Assembly (NCBI GenBank): GCA_937883885.1
Contig: CAKZXL010000245.1
Span: 1 to 8,566 of the forward strand
Direction: 5' to 3'
Origin: an uncultured Aquincola sp.
GTDB taxonomy: Bacteria > Pseudomonadota > Gammaproteobacteria > Burkholderiales > Burkholderiaceae
Length of the DNA: 8,566 nt
A model generated the notes under the pieces. The model made no database searches. It was not told the origin of the DNA and worked only from the letters and a program-made list of their open reading frames with translations. A program made the translations under genes and the position numbers. This document shows, one piece after another, positions 1 to 8,566 of the stretch. Position 1 is the first letter of the stretch; every line of letters starts with the position of its first letter.

Positions 1-1121
1 CCGAAGAACAGGCTGAAGTTGGCTTCCACCTGGCTGTAGGCCTGCGACATCACGCCGCGGGCGCCGGTGTTGGGCTTGCCGTAGGGGCCGCGCTGAATGG
101 ACGACCAGTACCGCGGATGGAAGGCGCGCTGCACCAACGTCACATAGTCCACCTGCAGCGCAGGCAGCGGCGTGCCGGCACGCACGCTCTCCGACAGCGG
201 GCCCAGCACGCTGTCGGTGGCGCTGACGATCTGCGTCTCCAGCACTGGGCGGTACAGCAGCTTGCGGCCCAGGTCGGGCAGCGAACGGCCGCTGCAGCTC
301 ATCTCGGTGGCGTCCACGGGCGCCGTCATCGCCTGCGAAGCCAGGGCGGAATTGATCAAGGCCAGCCGCTCACGGCGCACGCTGCCATCGGCCTGCAGCA
401 CCCACACGCCCGCGTTCGGGTCGCGCGGGCCGCCGGCACTGCTGCCGTTGAAGACGTTGCTGGCACGGCCATCCCACAGCAGGCGGTGGTTGAACACCGC
501 GTTGATGACCGTGGGCGCATTGCGCGCCGACACGCGGCGCGCACCGATGCCGCCGATCTGGTGCACCGCATCGGGCGACCGCACGCAGCCGTCGGTGCTG
601 GTCATGGCGTAGCTGACCGACTGGAATTGGCCGCCGAAGGCGCCGCCCGAGCCGGCCACGTCGTCGGAGATGCGGGCCAGGCCGGCGACGTCGGCTTCGG
701 TCAGCGGATCGGCCGGCTGCGTGAACGGAAAGTCCGCCACCCGCAGCACCTGGTTGGGGCCACGGCGCAGCCCGTCCAGCCCCTGGTCGAAGCGCGGCGC
801 CACCTGATGCTTGCCGCCGGGCGCCAGCTGGTTGCGCACCCGGCGGTCGGCCCCCGCCTGGAAGTGGCAGGAGGCACAGGCCATGCCGTCGCTGCCCACG
901 TTGCTGTCCCAGAACAAGGCCTTGCCAAGCTGGATGGCCGCCTGGCGGTCGACGATGATGGGTTGGGGCCCGTCATACAAACCCGGCACCGGTGGCACCG
1001 GCACGCCCTTGAGCGACATCGGCATCGGGCCGAACTCGGCCCGGGCCACGGGCATGCCGGCCCAGCAGCCGGCCAGCGCCAGCAGGATTGCGGGCAGCGC
1101 CCGCGGTGCCATCAGCTTCAT
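1..1121 (-). CDS. Di-heme cytochrome c peroxidase-family protein, C-terminus outside the window
   Basis: This is an exported c-type haem protein of the bacterial di-haem peroxidase/MauG superfamily, which carries out peroxide-dependent redox chemistry in the envelope. About 373 codons are visible and the frame runs open through the window's left edge. The N-terminus reads MKLMAPRALPAILLALAGC, a signal peptide with a perfect lipobox (LAGC, Cys19); ARA at residues 26-28 is an alternative signal peptidase I site. The first haem site is CASCH at residues 82-86. Further on comes a stretch typical of these peroxidases, RNAPTVINAVFNHRLLWDGR (200-219), including the Trp (W216) that usually lies between the two haems. 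The second CxxCH is not seen and should lie beyond position 1. I chose the ATG at 1121 over the in-frame ATG at 1112 because it adds MKL to the signal peptide; neither has a clear ribosome binding site. It follows PEP-CTERM protein 2 by 46 nt and is probably the last or a late gene of the operon. It is clearly different from the MbnH enzyme upstream. Confidence 0.9.
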   Translation of the reverse strand, partial: MKLMAPRALPAILLALAGCWAGMPVARAEFGPMPMSLKGVPVPPVPGLYDGPQPIIVDRQAAIQLGKALFWDSNVGSDGMACASCHFQAGADRRVRNQLAPGGKHQVAPRFDQGLDGLRRGPNQVLRVADFPFTQPADPLTEADVAGLARISDDVAGSGGAFGGQFQSVSYAMTSTDGCVRSPDAVHQIGGIGARRVSARNAPTVINAVFNHRLLWDGRASNVFNGSSAGGPRDPNAGVWVLQADGSVRRERLALINSALASQAMTAPVDATEMSCSGRSLPDLGRKLLYRPVLETQIVSATDSVLGPLSESVRAGTPLPALQVDYVTLVQRAFHPRYWSSIQRGPYGKPNTGARGVMSQAYSQVEANFSLFF

Positions 1122-1124
1122 CAC

Positions 1125-1144
1125 GACAAGTTGTACAGACAAGT
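1125..1144. repeat. Short direct repeat in front of the second di-heme gene
   Basis: The plus strand reads GACAAGT, TGTACA, GACAAGT: two identical heptamers with a 13-bp period around a palindromic hexamer. It lies 4-23 nt upstream of the ATG at 1121, where a ribosome binding site would be expected but is not recognisable. It could be a protein-binding site or chance. No function is claimed. Confidence 0.3.
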
Positions 1145-1167
1145 GGACAGAGGGCGGAGGGGACCGA

Positions 1168-2004
1168 TCAGCGCGCCGGGCGACGGCGGCGCTGCAGGCC
1201 GGCCACCGCGGCCAGGCCACCGAACATCAGCGCCCAGGTGCCCGGCTCCGGCACGGCCGCGACCGCGCTGACGCCCAGGTTGTAGCTCGCCGACGTGGCC
1301 AGCGCGTTGTTGGCGCCGCCGATGAAGATGGTGTACCAGCCGGCCTTGACGCCGCTGACGGTCATGCTGATGCTGTTGCCGACAGCGGTGCCGCTGACGC
1401 CGGTGGCGAAGCTGTTGTCCTTGCGCACGTCGTTCACGCCCTGCACCAGGTTCTCGCCCCAGCCGGTGGTGGTGGATGCATGGCTGGGCCCGGTGAGCGC
1501 ATAGGCCAGGGTCTGCTGGATGTTGCCGTTGCTGCCGCTGAGCCAGGCGGTGCCGACGTCACCCACCTGCCCCGCCACGTTCAGCGAATGCGGGCTGCCC
1601 CAGCCGTTGACGGCGAACTCGTCGGATTCCGTGCCACCGTCGAAGGCACTGCTGCCCGAGGCCCAGAGCGTGAGGCCGGGCGCGAAGTTGGCCGAGGCCA
1701 GCGTGGGCGTCAGCGTGAGGGTGATGTCGGCCGTGGTGGCCACCTGGAAGTTGTACCAGGCGCCCACATGCGCCCAGCCGGAGTACATCAGGCTGGGGTT
1801 GTCGGCATAGCTGTTCTTGCCCAGCGTCTGCACGTCGCTGAGGCTGCCGCCCACGCTCAGCAGCGGTGCGTCGCTGTTGCCGGCGCCGCTCCAGGCCTGG
1901 AATTCGACCGAGCCGGCGGCCCAGCCGGCCGGCGCCAGCGCCAGCAGAGCGGCCGTGGCGGCCAGGCTGCGCAGCGCGGCAGCGGGTTGGAAGGTCTTGT
2001 TCAT
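1168..2004 (-). CDS. PEP-CTERM sorting domain-containing protein 2
   Basis: This is a secreted protein of 278 residues predicted to be processed by exosortase. The N-terminal signal peptide (residues 1 to about 29, ending GWA or GWAA) begins at an ATG with an AGGAG 8 nt upstream, the clearest ribosome binding site in the window. The C-terminus is a classic PEP-CTERM signal: VPEPG at 251-255, a hydrophobic segment of about 15 residues, then QRRRRPAR. The body is rich in Gly, Ser, Ala, Asn and Thr with alternating beta-type segments such as DITLTLTP (93-100) and GWYTIFIGGA (222-231), and has no cysteine. The segment from the IFIGGA motif to the PEP motif closely resembles PEP-CTERM protein 1 (LFVGGA to VPEPG), and both have a PGxxL segment near the middle, so the two are probably paralogues. 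Its position between the barrel gene and a second di-heme gene suggests it belongs to the same copper/redox system. Its biochemical role is unknown. Confidence 0.92.
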   Translation of the reverse strand: MNKTFQPAAALRSLAATAALLALAPAGWAAGSVEFQAWSGAGNSDAPLLSVGGSLSDVQTLGKNSYADNPSLMYSGWAHVGAWYNFQVATTADITLTLTPTLASANFAPGLTLWASGSSAFDGGTESDEFAVNGWGSPHSLNVAGQVGDVGTAWLSGSNGNIQQTLAYALTGPSHASTTTGWGENLVQGVNDVRKDNSFATGVSGTAVGNSISMTVSGVKAGWYTIFIGGANNALATSASYNLGVSAVAAVPEPGTWALMFGGLAAVAGLQRRRRPAR

Positions 2005-2012
2005 CGTGCTCT

Positions 2013-2017
2013 CTCCT
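2013..2017 (-). promoter_or_regulatory. Ribosome binding site of PEP-CTERM protein 2
   Basis: AGGAG on the minus strand, 8 nt before the ATG at 2004. It decides the start: the upstream in-frame extension has neither this signal nor a signal peptide at its N-terminus. Confidence 0.75.
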
Positions 2018-2026
2018 GAGGTGAAT

Positions 2027-2043
2027 GCGGGGCCGTGCCCCGC
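2027..2043 (-). other. Intergenic GC hairpin between the barrel and PEP-CTERM genes
   Basis: A perfect 7-bp inverted repeat, GCGGGGC and GCCCCGC, with a 3-nt loop in the 67-nt gap between the barrel stop codon and the next ribosome binding site. No T-run follows it in the direction of transcription, so it is not a convincing intrinsic terminator. It could be an mRNA stabiliser or attenuator that sets different expression for the downstream genes. Confidence 0.45.
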
Positions 2044-2071
2044 GGGGGTTGAATCGGTGATCGCAGGGCCG

Positions 2072-3343
2072 CTACCAGTCGCGGCGCCACAGCGCACCGG
2101 GCGTCCACACCAGGCGCAGCGCGGCGAAGGACTCGCGCTCGCTGCCGATGCGGTCGACGCCCGCTTCCACACTGGCGCGCAGGTCGTCGCGCAGCAGGTA
2201 GCCGGCGCTGGCGGCCAGCCGCTGCACACGCTGGTTGCCCAGCAGGCCGGCATCGGTGGCCACGGCCAGTGCGCCGCTGCCGCGCACACGCTGCACGCCG
2301 CGCACGCCTTCGCCGCGCAGCGCCAGCTGCCAGCGGTCGCTGGGCTGCCAGATCACATCGAGCCAGCCGCCGCCGGTGTTGCCGCGGTAATGCGCATCGC
2401 CGCTGGCCGACCACAGCGCACCGACATCGCGTCGCCACAGGCCCGCGGCCTGCAGCGTCCAGCCCGTCCAGGGGGTGTCCCAGCGCAGGCCCAGCGTCAG
2501 CACGTCGCTGCGGCCGTCGAAGCAGGTGATGCCGACCAGGCTGCGCTCGCAGTCGGGCCTGGCGTGGGTATGCCCCGACAACGCGTTCTGGATGTAGGCG
2601 CCGCGGCGGCTGGGCTGCAGGCGCATGGCCAGCAGCTGGGCCTGCCAGCCCCCGGCGCCCACACGCGCCTGCAGCGCCGGCGCCCAGGGCATGCCGGCAC
2701 CGCCCGGGTAGGCGCGGCCGCGCCACACACCCACACCCAGCGACTGCAGCCAGGGCCAGCGGTCGTCTTCCCCGCGCTGCCAGCGCAGGTCGAGGCCGTC
2801 GTCGATCCAGTCGCCGCCCAGCACCACCCGCTTGGCCAGCGGCATGGCGCCGAAACGGTCGAAATGCCCGCCGCCGGCCACCACGCGGCCGGTGGGCACG
2901 GCCTGCCGGCCACCGCGCAGCTGCAGCCGGCCCTCGCCCAGCGGGCGCTGCCATTGCAGCCAGGCGTCTTCCACGTGGGCGGGGTCGCTGTCGTGCCAGC
3001 CGTAGCCCAGCCGGGCCGACCACTGCGCATCGGCCCGCAGGCCCAGCGCCAGCGTGCCGTGTTCCAGCGCACCGCCGCGGCGGTCGGCCGGCGTGTCGCC
3101 ATTGCTGAAGAGGCCCGGCAGCCGGGCTGCCGGCCAGGGCTGGGAGGCGTGGGCGGCACTGAGCGCCAGCGCGCCTTCCAGCTGCACGCCCGGCGCGGTG
3201 TCGTCGGCCTCGTGGTCTTCCAGGCCGTGCGCGACGGCGCCACCAACCAGCGCCGCCAGCAGCAGCGCCGCGGCACCGCGTGGCCAGCGCTCAGCGCGCG
3301 GCGGCGAACGGGTCGGACAGGCGGGGGTTGGTGAGGAACTCAT
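2072..3343 (-). CDS. Predicted outer-membrane beta-barrel protein of the MbnP/MbnH locus
   Basis: I do not recognise a named family. The 423-residue product looks like a porin-type outer-membrane barrel. A charged leader of about 22 residues precedes a hydrophobic segment (23-38) ending AVA, so the mature chain would start HGLEDHEADD, with a possible N-terminal histidine and further acidic and His residues. The rest alternates short amphipathic, aromatic-rich strands (for example LGVGVWRGR and LTLGLRWDT) with Gly/Asp turns, and the last residue is Trp, as barrel proteins usually end in an aromatic. A GRxxxPTGR-type segment near 145-153 and an HFDRFGAMPLAKR segment (160-172) resemble constriction or loop regions of porins. 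C265 and C274 could form a disulphide-closed loop. The ATG at 3343 overlaps the MbnH 3' end by 53 nt; no later ATG, GTG or TTG precedes the signal sequence. A role in moving metal or substrate across the outer membrane for the MbnP/MbnH pair is inference. Confidence 0.75.
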   Translation of the reverse strand: MSSSPTPACPTRSPPRAERWPRGAAALLLAALVGGAVAHGLEDHEADDTAPGVQLEGALALSAAHASQPWPAARLPGLFSNGDTPADRRGGALEHGTLALGLRADAQWSARLGYGWHDSDPAHVEDAWLQWQRPLGEGRLQLRGGRQAVPTGRVVAGGGHFDRFGAMPLAKRVVLGGDWIDDGLDLRWQRGEDDRWPWLQSLGVGVWRGRAYPGGAGMPWAPALQARVGAGGWQAQLLAMRLQPSRRGAYIQNALSGHTHARPDCERSLVGITCFDGRSDVLTLGLRWDTPWTGWTLQAAGLWRRDVGALWSASGDAHYRGNTGGGWLDVIWQPSDRWQLALRGEGVRGVQRVRGSGALAVATDAGLLGNQRVQRLAASAGYLLRDDLRASVEAGVDRIGSERESFAALRLVWTPGALWRRDW

Positions 3344-4457
3344 GGTCGGTGAGGGTCTTGAGAAAGGCGACAAGGTCTTCGCGCTCCTGCGCATCCAGCG
3401 TGATGCGGCTGACGAGCGGGTCCTTGAACGGGTTGCTGCGGCCATCGCCGGCATGGGGGCCACTGCTGATCACACGGCCACCGGCGGCATAAAACGCCAG
3501 CACCTCGGCCAGGGTGGCGATGGTCCCGTCGTGCATGTAGGGCGCAGTGACCTCCACGTTGCGCAGGCTGGGCGCGCGGAACTTGCCCATGTCGGCGGCC
3601 AGCGCAGTGAGCTCGAAGAGGCCGCGATTGGGCTCAGGGAAGGCACCGGTGCCGCCGATGTTGTAGAGGCCGGTGTTGTGGAACGGCGTCTCGGTCAGGC
3701 GCGAGCTGGCATGCACGAACTGGTCGTTGAAGTTGATGCCGCCATGGCAGTGGAAGCACTCGGCCTTCTCGCCGAAGAAGAGGGTCAGGCCGCGCTGTTC
3801 GGCGTCGGTCAGCGTGGCCTGGCCGCGCAGATACTGGTCGTACTTGCTGTTGCCCGACACCAGCGTGCGCTGGAAGGCCGCGATGGCCTTGACCACGTTG
3901 CCCCAGCTGACCGGCGCCGCTTCGCCCGGGAAGGCCGCGCCGAACATCGCCGGATAGGCCGCATCGCCCTGCAGCCGCGCCAGCACCGCGGCGCGGTTGC
4001 CGTCGTTGATGCCCATCTCCACCGGTGCGGTGCCGAACAGGGGCACCAGCATCTGCGTTTCCAGATCGGTGAGCGCGTTGTTGGCCCAGGTCAGCGTCGG
4101 GTTGTAGGCCACGTTGCCCAGGTGCTGGGCATTGCGTGGATGGCCCTGGCCGGTGGAGCCCAGCGCGGTGATGCGGCCATCGGTGAAAGCCAGGCTTTGC
4201 ACGTGGCAGCTGGCGCAGGCCTGGGTGCCGTTGCCCGACAGCCGGCGGTCGTAGAACAGGAAGCGGCCCAGCGCCACCTTGTCGGCCGTCATCGGGTTGT
4301 CCGCGGGCACCCGCGGCACCGGAAATTGCGCCGGCAGGCTCCAGGCCCATCCGCTGCTGCTGCCACGGTCGACCTGCACCTCGGTGCTGCCGCCACCGCC
4401 GCAGCCGGCCAGCAGCAGGGCCAGCGTCGCCAGCCAGAGAACACACAGCCGCTTCAT
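3291..4457 (-). CDS. mbnH: MbnH-type di-heme enzyme (MXAN_0977 family)
   Basis: This is a di-haem enzyme of the cytochrome c peroxidase/MauG superfamily. Characterised family members use peroxide-derived high-valent haem to oxidise a Trp of the partner MbnP to kynurenine. The 388-residue product starts with a lipoprotein signal (LLAGC, Cys19) followed by a Gly linker, so it should be anchored in the envelope. Two haem sites are present: CASCH (81-85) and CFHCH (234-238). Other hallmarks are the TLTWANNAL segment (121-129) followed by VPLFGTAPVEMG (138-149), the FRAPSLRNVEVTAPYMHDG block (293-311), and a C-terminal DLVAFLKTLTDHEFLTNPR helix region (361-379). Length and motif order fit the family without gaps. 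Its ATG overlaps the stop codon of the MbnP-family gene (ATGA), so the two are translationally coupled and probably made in matched amounts. The barrel gene starts inside its 3' end. The symbol is used by family resemblance; no methanobactin genes are visible here. Confidence 0.94.
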   Translation of the reverse strand: MKRLCVLWLATLALLLAGCGGGGSTEVQVDRGSSSGWAWSLPAQFPVPRVPADNPMTADKVALGRFLFYDRRLSGNGTQACASCHVQSLAFTDGRITALGSTGQGHPRNAQHLGNVAYNPTLTWANNALTDLETQMLVPLFGTAPVEMGINDGNRAAVLARLQGDAAYPAMFGAAFPGEAAPVSWGNVVKAIAAFQRTLVSGNSKYDQYLRGQATLTDAEQRGLTLFFGEKAECFHCHGGINFNDQFVHASSRLTETPFHNTGLYNIGGTGAFPEPNRGLFELTALAADMGKFRAPSLRNVEVTAPYMHDGTIATLAEVLAFYAAGGRVISSGPHAGDGRSNPFKDPLVSRITLDAQEREDLVAFLKTLTDHEFLTNPRLSDPFAAAR

Positions 4458-6895
4458 TTGGCCACCGCCTTGAACACGGTCTGCGTGCGGCCGCCGTCGA
4501 TCGGCAGCCCGCTGCCGTTGCCATCGGCGCGCCAGTCGATGCCCAGCGCCCGGAACACGCCGTCGCAGTCGCGGTCGGTGCCGGCCGACATGCAGCCCTG
4601 CGCCCCGCCCTGGTTGATCGTGATGTTGGTGCCGGCCAGCAGTGCCTCCAGGTCCACCGCCACCTTCTGCGTGCGAGGGTCGAATGCTTCAAGCCGGATC
4701 AGGCCCCGGTTGAGCTTGCTGCACTGCACCGTGCCCAGGCCGGCGTTGCCGGTGCAGCCGGTGGCGCCCAGGTGCACGAAGAAGGTGTCTGACGACCAGG
4801 CCCCGGCGCTGGGCTGGGTGACTTCGATCTTGGCGAACTTGCGGCCGGCCTGCCAGCTCCAGCCCATCGCAAAGCTGTCCAGCGGCGGTGGTGCGGTGGC
4901 GGTGTCGGTGTGGTTCATCGAATGCGGCACGCCCAGCGTGACCAGCAGACCCACGTAGCGGCCGGCCGGCACGGTGCCCGCCAGCAGCGCATTGCCGCCG
5001 GTGGTGCCTTCGGCGGCGCACTCGGCGCTGCCGTCTTCCAGGTCGATCAGCGTCACCGCGTCGCCGTTGGCGGCCGTGGTCTGCCAGGCGCTGTCGGCCG
5101 CCAGCTTCACCGGCACTTCTGCCCCGTCGGCGCGCAACAGCCGCGCCGCCGACAGGTAGAAGCGGAAGTCCATCAGCCGGGCCGGGGTGGCGGTGCTGCC
5201 CAGCGGCCCCAGCGGCGTGCCGCAGCGCAGCGGCGTGCTGCCGGCCACGGCGGCGAACTGCACCGCCACGCTGCGGTCGGCGGTGATGCGGGCCGCCAGG
5301 TCGCTGCGGGCGGCCGCAGCCTCGGCCACCTCGGCCAGCGTCACGTCGTGGGTGTAGAGGATGCCGCTGAACGACTGCAGCGCCAGCGCCGTGGCATCGC
5401 CGTCGGCCACTGCACCCGACAGGGCGTCGCCCGTGGGCGCCGGCATGCCCAACGTGGCCAGTGAAGCCACCACGGCCTGGCGCGCCGCCGCCAGGCTGCT
5501 GCTGCCCAGTGCATCGGCGCCGCCGGCATAGCGGCTGAACACCTGGCTTGGTCGGGCACCCCACGCACGCCCGAGGATCAGATCCGACAAGGGCGTGACC
5601 TGCACCGTGCTGCCGCCCTGCGTCACCCAGCCGTGCAGGGTCTCGGTGTTGTCATTGCCGCCCGCACGCCCACCCCGCAGCTGCAGCACGCAGGGCGGGC
5701 TGGCCTGCTGCAGCCGCAGCGAGAAGCTGCCATCGCTGGCCGTGATGGCGCCGGTCTGCGGTGCACCGGCAGCGCAGCGCAGGTCGACGGTGGCACCCAC
5801 CAGGGCACCGCCCAGCGCACGTGCCGTGCCGCGCACGGTGTCGGCCTGGGCCGCGGCGGCCGCCTGCGCAGCGGCTTCGGCCTGCGCGCGGGCGGCCGCC
5901 TCAGCCTCCGCGGCTGCCCGTGCAGCCGCCTCGGCGCGGGCCAGCGCCGCCAGGCGCTCCGCCTCCGAGGCAGCGGCCGCCTGCGCGGCAGCGAGGGCGG
6001 CTGCTTCGGCGGCGCGCTGGGCGGCCACGCGGGCGGCCTCGGCCGCCGCGGCTTGTTCGGCCGCGCGCCGCTCGGCTTCGGCCTGGCGCGCCGCGGCATC
6101 GACGGCGGCCTGGGCCTCGGCCGCGGCACGCGCCTCGGCCGCCGCGCGGGTGGCCGCCAGCGTCGGCGCCCAGGCGGTGGCGGCGACCGCGGCACTGCGC
6201 AGGTCTGACAAGGTCGCGCCGTCGGCGGCCAGCCGGGCGGCCAGCGCATCCAGTTGGCGGTCGGTCTGGTCCCCCACGGCAAACGCACCGGCAAACAGGT
6301 CGCCAGCGGGCATGGACAAGCCGAGGGCGCCGGCCTGCGCACGCACCCAGTCGGCCGCGGAGGAGAGCGTGGTGGCACTGGGCAGGTCGTTCGCAGCCAC
6401 GAAAGCGTCGAACACAGCGGCAGGCTCACGCCCGTAGGCCTTGGCCAGCGCCAGTTCAGTGAGCGGATGCAGCGCGGCCTGGCCGGTGGCCTGGGCCAGC
6501 GAATGCAGCACGCCGGTGAAGGCCACACCGCCGGCCTGGCCGCCGCGCGCCTGCAGCAGGCACGGTGGCAGCACGTCGCGCAGTTCCACCGTGTAGGCGC
6601 CCAGCGCATCGGTGGGGGCCAGGGCCTGGGCATCGCCGTTCAGGCAGTGCGCGCGCACCTGGGCACCCACCACCGCAGCGCCCACGGCCACGGTGCCGCT
6701 GAGCGTGGTGGCGCTGGCCGTGGGCAACGGCAGCGGCGTGGTGGGGGTGGCCGGTGGCGTCGAGTCGCCGCCAATGACGGCCACCGAATCGCCTCCACCG
6801 CCCCCACAGGCGGCGACGAGCAAGGCCACCAGGCAGGCCGCAGGCACGGCGGCCCGATGGGCGCGAACGACAGGGAACAACAGCTTCGGTGGCAT
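4454..6895 (-). CDS. mbnP: MbnP-family copper-binding lipoprotein with long duplicated N-terminal extension
   Basis: An 813-residue lipoprotein (VAAC lipobox, Cys30, then a Gly-rich linker). Residues about 541-813 are an MbnP domain, also called the metallo-mystery pair four-Cys protein: DFRFYLSAARLL (576-587), a Cys after an LIDLEDG motif (C626), VPAGRYVGLLVTLGVPHSMN (642-661), GWSWQAGRKF (678-687), FFVHLGATGC (705-714), FDP, and a final CMSAGTDRDCDGVFRALGI (768-786). Cysteines in this domain are C558, C626, C714, C725, C768 and C777. W604, W679, W681, W700 and W788 are candidates for the Trp that MbnH converts to kynurenine; H658, H662 and H708 are possible copper ligands. Family members are usually about 250-300 residues. 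Here about 510 extra residues lie between lipid anchor and domain: two copies of a carboxypeptidase-regulatory-like module (62-240 and 353-540) separated by an Ala/Glu/Arg coiled coil (247-352). It sits 32 nt after PEP-CTERM protein 1 and is coupled to mbnH by an ATGA overlap. Confidence 0.93.
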   Translation of the reverse strand: MPPKLLFPVVRAHRAAVPAACLVALLVAACGGGGGDSVAVIGGDSTPPATPTTPLPLPTASATTLSGTVAVGAAVVGAQVRAHCLNGDAQALAPTDALGAYTVELRDVLPPCLLQARGGQAGGVAFTGVLHSLAQATGQAALHPLTELALAKAYGREPAAVFDAFVAANDLPSATTLSSAADWVRAQAGALGLSMPAGDLFAGAFAVGDQTDRQLDALAARLAADGATLSDLRSAAVAATAWAPTLAATRAAAEARAAAEAQAAVDAAARQAEAERRAAEQAAAAEAARVAAQRAAEAAALAAAQAAAASEAERLAALARAEAAARAAAEAEAAARAQAEAAAQAAAAAQADTVRGTARALGGALVGATVDLRCAAGAPQTGAITASDGSFSLRLQQASPPCVLQLRGGRAGGNDNTETLHGWVTQGGSTVQVTPLSDLILGRAWGARPSQVFSRYAGGADALGSSSLAAARQAVVASLATLGMPAPTGDALSGAVADGDATALALQSFSGILYTHDVTLAEVAEAAAARSDLAARITADRSVAVQFAAVAGSTPLRCGTPLGPLGSTATPARLMDFRFYLSAARLLRADGAEVPVKLAADSAWQTTAANGDAVTLIDLEDGSAECAAEGTTGGNALLAGTVPAGRYVGLLVTLGVPHSMNHTDTATAPPPLDSFAMGWSWQAGRKFAKIEVTQPSAGAWSSDTFFVHLGATGCTGNAGLGTVQCSKLNRGLIRLEAFDPRTQKVAVDLEALLAGTNITINQGGAQGCMSAGTDRDCDGVFRALGIDWRADGNGSGLPIDGGRTQTVFKAVAK
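5276..5839 (-). repeat. Module B of the duplicated extension in the MbnP-family protein
   Basis: Residues 353-540. It repeats the order of module A: an RGTA start, GALVGATV, a Cys (C374), a turn with DGSFSLRL, PPCVLQLRGGRAGG (C402), LH, TPLSDLILGRAWG, a helical LGMPAPTGDALSGAVADGD segment. The Cys pair is 28 residues apart, as in module A, so a conserved disulphide is plausible. It leads directly into the MbnP domain. Confidence 0.8.
5840..6157 (-). repeat. Ala/Glu/Arg-rich coiled-coil segment of the MbnP-family protein
   Basis: Residues 247-352 consist almost only of Ala, Glu, Arg and Gln in AAAEA-, RAAAEAEAAA- and AQAEAAAQAA-type runs with no proline or glycine. That predicts one long helix or coiled coil of roughly 105 residues, in effect a rigid spacer between modules A and B. 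The DNA here is repetitive GCC/GCG/GCA codons, which also creates long shadow frames in all other phases. Confidence 0.8.
6176..6712 (-). repeat. Module A of the duplicated extension in the MbnP-family protein
   Basis: Residues 62-240. It begins LSGTVAVGAAVVGAQV, followed by C84, DALGAYTVEL, PPCLLQARGGQAGG (C112), LH, HPLTELALAKAYG, and a helical LGLSMPAGDLFAGAFAVGD segment. This pattern is familiar from lipoproteins of Burkholderiales, where a carboxypeptidase-regulatory-like fold precedes a helical part. It aligns with module B over nearly its full length, so it is an internal duplication. Confidence 0.8.
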
Positions 6896-6927
6896 GGGTC
6901 GGCAAGGTGGAGGCGGTGGACGACGGA

Positions 6928-7707
6928 TCAGGCGGGGCGTGCGCGGCGGCGGGCCAGGCCGCCGACCAGGCCCAGCCCGGCCAGCAGCAGCGCCGTGGTG
7001 CCGGGCTCGGGCACCGCGGCCACGGTCACGGCCAGGCCGTAGCTGGGCAGCGCGGCGCTGGCCTGCGCGGCGTAGTCCGCGCCCCCGACGAACAGCGAGT
7101 AATCGCCCGGCCCGAGCGTGAAGCGGGCCGTCACCGTGCCGTCGGCCAGGCCGTCACCCACCAGGCCGGCCGCGCTGCCGAAGTTGCCGGCATCACCGTC
7201 CACCGCGTAGCCGACGAAGCGGAAGCTGGACAAGGCCGCGGGCTGGGCGGCGTTGCCGTCGTTGCCGATGCGCCAGTCGCCCGTGGCCACCCAGGCCCCT
7301 TCCTTGGCGACGCCAGGCAGGCTGGCCAGGTAGTCCAGCGTGATGGCCGCGCCGTCATGGTCGGCCGAGGCCGGCGACACATGGGCCAGGCCTTCGTACA
7401 GAGAAAAGCCGGGCAGCAGGCCGCCGATGGAGGTGGCCGTGGCACCGGCGTTGGCGGCAGCGGTGATCTCCAGCGTCAAGGTGCTGTCGAGGTGGAAGCG
7501 GAAGGCGCGCGAGCGGTGGCTGTCGCCGAAGTCGGCGTCGGTGGCGTCGGCCCAACCGTAGTTGCCGCTCACGGCCTGGTTGCTGATGGTGGTGAAGCTG
7601 TCGGCTTGCAAGCTGCCGAAGTCGCGGCCGCCATAACCAATGTGGGCAGCGGCGGGCACGGAAGCGGCCGCAGCAGCGGCGAGAAAGAACAGGCGAACGG
7701 AAGTCAT
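6928..7707 (-). CDS. PEP-CTERM sorting domain-containing protein 1
   Basis: This is a secreted protein of 259 residues, predicted to be handled by exosortase. The start at the ATG at 7707 gives a compact signal peptide, MTSVRLFFLAAAAAASVPAAA; a GTG 39 nt upstream would add a polar leader and is less likely. Cleavage after AAA would expose histidine as residue 1 of the mature protein (HIGYGGRDFG). Other histidines are H64, H72, H109 and H117, and there is no cysteine. The C-terminus is VPEPG (232-236), a hydrophobic stretch, then ARRRARPA. Beta-type segments such as STLTLEITA (75-83) and GDYSLFVGGA (201-210) resemble those in PEP-CTERM protein 2. Only 32 nt separate its stop from the MbnP-family gene, so the two are probably co-transcribed. 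A role as an extracellular copper-binding or matrix protein is a hypothesis; no enzyme motif is recognisable. Confidence 0.92.
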   Translation of the reverse strand: MTSVRLFFLAAAAAASVPAAAHIGYGGRDFGSLQADSFTTISNQAVSGNYGWADATDADFGDSHRSRAFRFHLDSTLTLEITAAANAGATATSIGGLLPGFSLYEGLAHVSPASADHDGAAITLDYLASLPGVAKEGAWVATGDWRIGNDGNAAQPAALSSFRFVGYAVDGDAGNFGSAAGLVGDGLADGTVTARFTLGPGDYSLFVGGADYAAQASAALPSYGLAVTVAAVPEPGTTALLLAGLGLVGGLARRRARPA

Positions 7708-7851
7708 GTCGATCGGCGATGACAAAAAAGACAAGCGCAGGCGCACACCCGTCCGCTGCCTGGCCTCAGCGGCAGGCCGTGCGGAATAGGGGCGATGACG
7801 GGGGGAGACCGGGGCGACGCGAGCCGGCCGCGCCGGGCTTCAGGCCTTCAG

Positions 7852-7881
7852 CGTCGGGGATGGCATCGGGGATGGCGTCGG
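7852..7881. repeat. Short tandem repeat, 12-bp unit, about 2.5 copies
   Basis: CGTCGGGGATGG, CATCGGGGATGG, then CGTCGG in the non-coding gap. The second unit differs from the first at one base. Probably slippage in neutral DNA. Confidence 0.6.
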
Positions 7882-7949
7882 TGGAACACGCACAGGCAGC
7901 GGCACGCTCGACTGCTCAGCAGCGAACGGACAGATGCAGCGGATGGACC

Positions 7950-7966
7950 AGACCGGCGGACGGTCT
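7950..7966 (-). other. Small hairpin downstream of the DUF2946 gene
   Basis: AGACCG and CGGTCT form a perfect 6-bp stem with a 5-nt loop about 22 nt after the DUF2946 stop codon. There is no T-run after it, so it is at most a weak or factor-assisted terminator, or an mRNA 3' end structure. Confidence 0.3.
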
Positions 7967-7988
7967 CAGGGGCAGCGAAGAAGGCTGC

Positions 7989-8351
7989 TCAGGCGCGCGC
8001 GGGCGGACCGCGAGGCGGCAGCGGCGCGGCAGTGGCCGCTGCCAGGCGTGCGGCCGGGATGGCCTGCATCACATACGCCAGCGGCGACAGCGGCAAGACC
8101 TGGGGCACCACTGCAGCCGGCGGTGGTGCGCTGCCCAGGGTGCACAGCGGGCACTCGGTGCCATGGCCCTGGGCAGGCGATGCGTCGTCCTGACCATCGG
8201 CCAGCACGAGCTTGACGACACCGGAGGCGCTGCACACCAGGTTCATGGACTGCGGATGCAGCAGCGGCATCAAGGCCATGTTGAACACGGCCACGATGAA
8301 CGCAGCCAGCAACAGCCGGCAGGTCCAGGGGGCGTGGCGCAAGGCATTCAT
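7989..8351 (-). CDS. DUF2946-family small membrane protein with CPLC motif
   Basis: A 120-residue protein resembling the DUF2946 family, whose members commonly sit next to copper-uptake or copper-resistance genes. A hydrophobic segment at residues 12-31 (RLLLAAFIVAVFNMALMPLL) is a membrane anchor or uncleaved signal. It is followed by C40 and then the family's hallmark region HGTECPLC (63-70), where H63, C67 and C70 could bind metal. A second moderately hydrophobic stretch (about 79-110) precedes a Pro/Arg-rich tail. The ATG at 8351 gives a start matching the family's usual length; no strong ribosome binding site is seen. It is the first gene on the minus strand here, separated from the packed operon by 281 nt, so it may be transcribed with it or alone. 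A copper-related role is inferred from the family and from the MbnP/MbnH genes next door. Confidence 0.8.
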   Translation of the reverse strand: MNALRHAPWTCRLLLAAFIVAVFNMALMPLLHPQSMNLVCSASGVVKLVLADGQDDASPAQGHGTECPLCTLGSAPPPAAVVPQVLPLSPLAYVMQAIPAARLAAATAAPLPPRGPPARA

Positions 8352-8566
8352 GGCGCACCGATTATGTGCTGCGTGTACGTCGTTCGTGAAGTACTTCCTG
8401 AGAATAAGGATCCTCTTGCAGTTGTCTATGCAACTTCGTGCAGACGAGCCTGCGCGCGGGTGCCCGACGGGTTTTCACCAGTGCACGCCGGGAGCTTCTC
8501 CGTGGTGTGTGCAGCCACGGGCTGAGTAAGGTCGGCCTCACACACAGAGGCGGCCGTCAGCGGTCG
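8352..8566 (-). promoter_or_regulatory. Upstream region with probable promoter/operator of the DUF2946 gene
   Basis: No gene is seen in this stretch. The part nearest the gene (about 8385-8440) is noticeably more AT-rich than the rest of the window and holds three short dyads: GAAGTACTTC (8388-8397), AGGATCCT (8407-8414), and TTGCA with TGCAA (8416-8420 and 8429-8433), the last overlapping AGTTG with CAACT (8420-8424 and 8431-8435). On the minus strand TTGCAT (8433-8428) could serve as a -35 box and a TTATTC-like hexamer farther on as a weak -10, but the spacing is not ideal. Farther upstream lie a CCGTGG/CCACGG hairpin (8500-8520) and a GCCTC/GAGGC hairpin (8535-8551). The gene upstream is beyond the window. 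Confidence 0.4.

Follow-up and report, generated by a model that had tools for sequence, protein, structure and literature searches.

The 8,566-nucleotide (nt) stretch analysed here, called the window, comprises positions 1 to 8,566 of contig CAKZXL010000245.1 (assembly GCA_937883885.1) from an uncultured Aquincola sp., and its open reading frame (ORF) map places all seven genes on the minus strand. In our reading, to which we give a probability of roughly two in three, the window carries a copper-acquisition operon under CruR-type leader control, with two different kynurenine-type copper-capture pairs and a histidine-rich porin. One pair is MbnP with MbnH, and the other is a PEP-CTERM protein, here PEP2, with a second di-heme protein. 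The remaining products are a porin-fold protein (the barrel), a further PEP-CTERM protein (PEP1) and a DUF2946 protein. A copper system had been proposed in the first-pass annotation, and the family, fold and motif evidence, from which we infer the function, bears it out. Sequences and structural models established the family assignments, the fold matches, the ligand residues, the clade, the spacing of motifs and the conserved gene order described below.

A CorA/MopE-Like Protein and Its Probable Di-Heme Partner

PEP2 resembles the CorA and MopE proteins of methanotrophs, and both copper binding and a kynurenine are predicted for it. The protein matched the Cu_bind_CorA family PF18252 with 28.5 bits (cut-off 27), and when its structural model was compared with the PDB using Foldseek (E ≤ 1e-3), CorA and MopE (4bz4/2vov) were the only entries returned. 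The W-x-H...H ligand set, represented in PEP2 by W77, H79 and H139, does not vary among the 19 aligned proteins and aligns with the corresponding residues of two CorA proteins. Sequence searches of the PDB with PEP2 or PEP1 as a single sequence gave weak, unrelated matches only. A calcium site of CorA is also mentioned in the literature (PMC3912023).

The PEP-CTERM domain TIGR02595 was recognised in the two PEP-CTERM proteins with 22.7 and 22.5 bits (cut-off 16), and an exosortase was detected in seven of the eight genomes carrying PEP2, the one in which it was not found being G791. The sorting signal distinguishes PEP2 from CorA and MopE, as does the occurrence of its combined form, that is, together with MbnP and MbnH, in genomes without a detected monooxygenase subunit B (G001–G003).

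The second di-heme protein matched PF03150 with 53.8 bits (cut-off 25.6). The window copy, which is cut by the window edge, has one CxxCH motif within the 373 amino acids (aa) in view, and its full-length relatives of 731–782 aa have two. By sequence, this protein groups with CorB and SACCP, apart from MbnH and from classical peroxidases. In a tree of 29 proteins, ten di-heme proteins linked to PEP2, including that of the window, formed one group with three CorB/SACCP proteins (support 100/100), and MbnH formed a separate group (100/99); the window row is partial (49% of columns), and a long-branch warning applies to the finer order. Matches to PF18252 were found in three of 360 genomes of the class, two of them CorA-like and one with the MopE motif PF11617. 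Beside the PF18252 gene of each of these three loci stands a relative of the second di-heme protein of the window (E 9e-83 to 8e-82), and the same three neighbours matched MbnH far more weakly (E 1e-19 to 6e-17). The genes for CorB and SACCP are co-transcribed with corA and mopE, respectively, and both proteins have been suggested to oxidise a tryptophan (PMC3912023).

The likeness to CorA/CorB of Methylomicrobium album and MopE/SACCP of Methylococcus capsulatus extends over the ligand set, the fold and an adjoining di-heme protein of one group. Resembling CorA/MopE and CorB/SACCP respectively, PEP2 and the second di-heme protein have a likely role, where the first-pass annotation had assigned none. 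As a separate observation, downstream of mopE in locus L056 (8076–16470) a short repeat, which in one frame codes for FLSCLCGSE-like stretches, was present in 7, 19 and 9 copies in three ORFs.

PEP1 exceeded the cut-off of NF038126 (55.7 bits; cut-off 50), and PEP2 remained under it (44.3 bits). The two proteins are akin (hhalign of PEP1 against the PEP2 family, 98.9%), but the tryptophan of W-x-H is absent from PEP1 (alignment A4) and its HMMER score comes mostly from the C-terminal part. A histidine following an AxA signal-site pattern was noticed by eye in PEP1 and is kept in three of three aligned rows. PEP1 was considered as a second copper protein and rejected: the tryptophan is absent, the likeness to PEP2 is largely C-terminal and the histidine after AxA is only suggestive. 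The gene occurs in the window, in locus L003 and in genome G024 and is absent from locus L001; the contig of locus L002 begins inside MbnP, with the PEP1 region out of view.

MbnP and MbnH

The core pair had been recognised in the first-pass annotation and is genuine, both family profiles exceeding their curated cut-offs. MbnP matched TIGR04052 with 252.8 bits (cut-off 140) and PF20243 with 105.9 bits, and its PDB match was 7l6g (E 2.9e-49), with which a W-x-W stretch and several cysteines align. MbnH matched TIGR04039 with 513.5 bits (cut-off 362.85) and PDB entry 6e1c (E 3.7e-142), and has two CxxCH motifs (aa 81 and 234). Lipobox-like starts are present in both proteins, and the mbnP and mbnH genes overlap by 4 nt. 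A kynurenine in MbnP was reportedly described in work from 2021.

Unlike other MbnP/MbnH systems, of methanobactin operons and elsewhere, the window carries its MbnP-type copper domain (aa 541–794) on an N-terminal arm of about 540 residues. The arm (window 6895–5273) contains CarboxypepD_reg-like stretches (PF13620, 24.6 bits) and an alanine-rich TolA-like stretch (TIGR02794, 23.5 bits), both below the respective cut-offs; these stretches could serve as a rigid spacer. Among the 23 loci with a barrel gene described below, long MbnP ORFs (871 aa in L001 and 843 aa in L003) are confined to the combined loci, and the longest MbnP elsewhere has 464 aa; in this comparison, L002 is cut by the contig start and L014 and L015 look broken.

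No MbnB or MbnC family was matched by the seven window genes in Pfam and NCBIfam, a search over the 8.6 kb visible that did not include small ORFs such as an MbnA precursor. The pair lies outside any visible methanobactin cluster, as had been noted before. In two other loci, L071 (2784–3587) and L074 (385–1200), MbnP and MbnH are followed by an enzyme of the MbnB/TglH/ChrH family (PF05114, 74.5 and 78 bits; cut-off 25), a family of enzymes for ribosomally synthesised and post-translationally modified peptides. No barrel adjoins these two pairs, which possibly belong to a peptide-modifying copper cluster. Loci L012 and L022 each hold two MbnP-MbnH pairs a few kb apart, with a barrel beside only one of the two.

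A Porin-Fold Barrel with Conserved Histidines

The outer-membrane placement previously assigned to the barrel agrees with its structural model (predicted local distance difference test score, pLDDT, 88.0), which has a porin fold: Foldseek returned porins, with a best E-value of 1.4e-10 and 186 chains at E ≤ 0.001. The fold is shared with general and specific porins such as OmpT of Vibrio, OprP and chitoporin, but unlike these the barrel gave no sequence match in Pfam, NCBIfam or, with a profile, the PDB. It further differs from them in its conserved histidines, a His-x-His...Cys...Cys stretch and a histidine after a signal-like site. A scan of genome contigs with the single barrel sequence gave no matches, and a scan with alignment A2, which comprises 29 barrel sequences, led to 23 loci in public genomes. 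Sequences P0001 and P0022 (identical to the window) and P0020 and P0021 (15% and 19% query cover) were left out of alignments A1 and A2.

All 29 rows of A2 share His258, His260, Cys265 and Cys274. Among the rows having a residue at the position, conservation is likewise complete for His44 and His95 (27 of 27) and for His117 and His123 (28 of 28). The column of His44 reflects the placement by MAFFT; in the window, the signal-like AVA is directly followed by His39, which lies five residues before His44. Of the 27 full-length rows, 24 have a histidine after a signal-site-like pattern, compared with 25 of 518 cases in a crude background drawn from the loci examined. Since this histidine follows the AxA pattern in both the barrel and PEP1, the mature form of either protein may begin with histidine. 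Copper proteins with a histidine brace start with histidine in their mature form.

A CruR-Like Leader ORF

The DUF2946 ORF matched PF11162 with 29.6 bits (cut-off 23.7). Its 120-aa product carries CXXC at aa 67–70 and RGPP at aa 114–117, with 43 residues between the motifs and three after RGPP. Both motifs, with a spacing of 42–48, were present in 28 of 29 DUF2946-matching ORFs of the barrel loci, some of which have R-G-P-P; a 324-aa frame without motifs in L023 was scored as the miss. According to Roy et al. 2022 (PMC9426467), the DUF2946 protein Bp2923 (CruR) is a leader peptide in which CXXC senses copper and a C-terminal RAPP stalls the ribosome, with a spacing of 45, and copper lowers the operon via Rho-dependent termination.

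The window ORF shares with CruR its place as the first ORF, the CXXC, the C-terminal R-x-P-P, a similar spacing and a long leader before the next gene. It differs from CruR in having RGPP instead of RAPP, and it would govern an operon with two pairs, whereas CruR governs a TonB receptor. As it carries the CXXC and R-x-P-P marks of CruR, the DUF2946 product is probably a regulator, a CruR-like leader peptide. The role of inner-membrane component, assigned to it in the first-pass annotation, was dropped in favour of this reading. The part of the system that concerns the CruR operon is known in kind, since the same paper already lists MbnPH-like genes in cruR operons.

The 281-nt leader has a C/G ratio of 1.38 and 23.8 YC per 100 nt, the top of nine segments compared. 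A hairpin with a T-run at 7754–7729 was considered as a possible attenuator; it is not unusually stable, and the scans of L003 and L001 listed no hairpin with a T-run in the leader before PEP1 or MbnP.

Gene Order and Features of the Window

The features of the window are listed in Table 1. The gaps between the six genes from 7707 leftward, given earlier as 32, −4, −53, 67 and 46 nt, were re-measured and are all correct. Two promoter-like sites were found in the whole window, both before the DUF2946 ORF (shuffle mean 0.1); the same scan gave no such site in the corresponding parts of L003 and L001. No Rfam match was obtained. To judge from the look of their N-termini, the products of the window appear to be exported.

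Table 1. Features of the window, all on the minus strand, with the basis of each assignment.
Feature	Position	Strand	Basis
Two promoter-like sites	8361..8428	-	Consensus match only; directly upstream of the DUF2946/CruR-like ORF
CruR-like DUF2946 upstream ORF, 120 aa	7989..8351	-	PF11162 and motif positions
Leader, 281 nt, from CruR-like ORF to PEP1	7708..7988	-	C-rich
PEP1, FxDxF-type PEP-CTERM protein	6928..7707	-	NF038126
MbnP, 813 aa	4454..6895	-	TIGR04052, PF20243, PDB 7l6g
MbnH di-heme enzyme	3291..4457	-	TIGR04039, PDB 6e1c
Barrel, outer-membrane porin-fold protein	2072..3343	-	Model and Foldseek; sequence family unnamed
PEP2, CorA/MopE-like with PEP-CTERM sorting signal	1168..2004	-	PF18252, fold matches 4bz4/2vov, invariant residues
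Codons W77-A78-H79, predicted kynurenine precursor and first His ligand	1768..1776	-	Calculated from PEP2 ORF start
Codon H139, predicted second His ligand	1588..1590	-	Calculated from PEP2 ORF start
SACCP/CorB-like second di-heme protein, first 373 aa	3..1121	-	PF03150, tree; ORF open at window edge

The order MbnP-MbnH-barrel-PEP2-di-heme is kept in three relatives (loci L001–L003), which comprise a Roseateles, a Rubrivivax and Burkholderiales bacterium PBB2. Because these three genomes keep it at 50–76% protein identity, the conserved gene order is more than chance.

Two Modules and Their Distribution

The neighbourhoods fall into two modules. The first, conserved module is MbnP-MbnH-porin, often with DUF2946 and PCuAC. 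All 23 barrel loci have MbnP and MbnH, and MbnH stands directly before the barrel in 22 of them, L014 being ordered differently. According to similarity searches, of which part was checked with Pfam or NCBIfam (L001, L003, L005 and L008), the neighbours of the 23 loci include DUF2946 (18 loci), PCuAC (15), a TonB receptor (7), YcnI (3) and CusA/CusB (2). L001 and L003 also hold PCuAC genes, a second DUF2946 and a TonB-receptor-like gene, and L003 in addition YcnI (DUF1775); one of the two PCuAC genes of L003 is below the Pfam cut-off (24.2 against 29.4 bits). Of 399 genomes from the order, 20 have an MbnH above the cut-off, and a barrel adjoins it in at least seven of these 20, or in five of 18 once G003 and G004, both known beforehand from the barrel search, are set aside; two of the seven barrel matches are weak (E 2e-23 and 2e-18). 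The count of seven is a lower bound, since the 20 MbnH loci reach only about 1.5 kb to either side and four of them (L063, L067, L069 and L072) are shortened by contig ends.

PEP2 and its di-heme protein make up the second, added module, which PEP1 joins in the window, L003 and G024. PEP2 is rare, being found in 5 of 399, 2 of 399 and 2 of 398 genomes, with at most six candidates per genome scored. The di-heme gene follows PEP2 downstream on the same strand in eight of eight genomes, three of which were reached via the barrel search; the two genes are 669 nt apart in G024 and 139–210 nt apart in three others. MbnH over the cut-off was present in three of the eight genomes. Among the five without it, three encode the ammonia/methane monooxygenase subunit B (PF04744), which was not found in G001–G003. 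Both modules are combined, in the same order, in the window and its three relatives. Genome G024, with three PF04744 copies, shows PEP1 and PEP2 followed by two tandem CorB/SACCP-like genes (L034, 167–11438), and further downstream lie a CusB/HlyD-like gene and an outer-membrane-efflux gene.

Proposed Mechanism and Alternative Explanations

The operon is probably switched on when copper is scarce. Copper on the CXXC of the CruR-like peptide would halt reading within the leader; under scarcity, the ribosome would stall at the RGPP end and the operon would be read through. PEP2 would then be exported and sorted to the surface, where its SACCP/CorB-like partner would oxidise Trp77 to kynurenine; together with His79 and His139, the modified residue would form a Cu(I) site. 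Copper would cross the outer membrane through the porin, which has conserved histidines, and would be taken up in the periplasm by MbnP, held on its long arm and matured likewise by MbnH. In this scheme copper binding and the formation of kynurenine are predicted, as are the surface location, the transport direction and the regulation. A wider version, which we put forward tentatively and would not yet favour, sees an envelope-spanning copper relay of an exosortase-sorted, CorA-like surface trap, a dedicated His-lined copper porin and an arm-mounted periplasmic MbnP under one CruR leader, the surface pair serving also as a stand-alone capture pair of ammonia-oxidising bacteria.

Several observations weigh against copper acquisition by two pairs. 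PEP2 is remote from CorA in sequence (hhalign 81.6%), and only four of 19 PEP2-family sequences match PF18252 at E ≤ 0.01, which weakens the link to CorA. PEP2 was found in three of 23 barrel loci, L016 ending just past the barrel where it could not show PEP2, and in one of the 20 MbnH-positive genomes, namely G003, in a whole-genome search of apparently the same 399 genomes. For this reason, the PEP2 genes are an added module and no constant companion, and the association of barrel and PEP-CTERM genes with MbnP/MbnH supposed in the first-pass annotation gives a mixed result, the barrel adjoining MbnH in at least seven of the 20 genomes and PEP2 being present in one. As for the leader, other parts of the window also show peaks of C over G, the strongest 80-nt stretches falling in other genes and junctions, so the leader cannot be taken as proof of a Rho site; its hairpin is of ordinary stability (z 0.30).

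With a kinship so remote and 20 of the 23 barrel loci showing no PEP2/di-heme pair, the copper role might be confined to MbnP-MbnH-porin, PEP2 and the second di-heme protein serving an exopolysaccharide matrix or peroxide reduction and the likeness of PEP2 to CorA going no further than a beta-sandwich fold. We consider this unlikely, as W-x-H and the second histidine are invariant, CorA and MopE are the top fold matches, and the di-heme partner groups with CorB/SACCP and always adjoins PEP2. Mere chance neighbourhood of genes without a common function would suit the rarity of the full combination, but it is highly improbable for genes that overlap or are tightly spaced and keep the same order in three relatives at that level of identity.

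The direction of transport is a further question, because copper binding per se gives none. Surface and periplasmic proteins could also hold copper away from the cell as a protection against excess, and the CusAB-type efflux genes near two of 23 barrel loci, like the CusB/outer-membrane-efflux-like genes downstream of the stand-alone PEP2 locus of G024, would fit such a function. However, the leader ORF has the marks of CruR, whose studied operon is lowered by copper according to PMC9426467, copper represses both CorA and MopE (PMC3912023), and PCuAC and TonB receptors are commoner beside barrel loci. Protection thus appears quite unlikely, and acquisition remains the reading that we prefer.

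Relation to Published Work and Significance

A literature search that left most subscription papers outside its reach found no paper joining PEP-CTERM with MopE and none describing both kynurenine pairs in one operon. MopE/SACCP has been called somewhat similar to MbnP/MbnH (PMC3621798), and mopE/corA have been sought by BLAST across methane and ammonia oxidisers, for the latter of which the accessible text gives no count (PMC6189053). PMC9239080 was considered as a prior description and rejected, its accessible part having no bearing on the system.

Two separate kinds of protein pair are known to place a kynurenine at a copper site, and the window operon holds both kinds. Such an operon makes it possible to ask whether the pairs work one after the other and whether either di-heme enzyme is dedicated to its own partner. 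The relatives of the two-pair operon sit in genomes without a detected copper monooxygenase subunit B. The porin family is a candidate route for copper across the outer membrane, and the stand-alone surface pair, in three genomes encoding monooxygenase subunit B, is a testable candidate for the way in which ammonia oxidisers capture copper. If the relay proposed above is true, the copper supply of ammonia and methane oxidisers would be linked.

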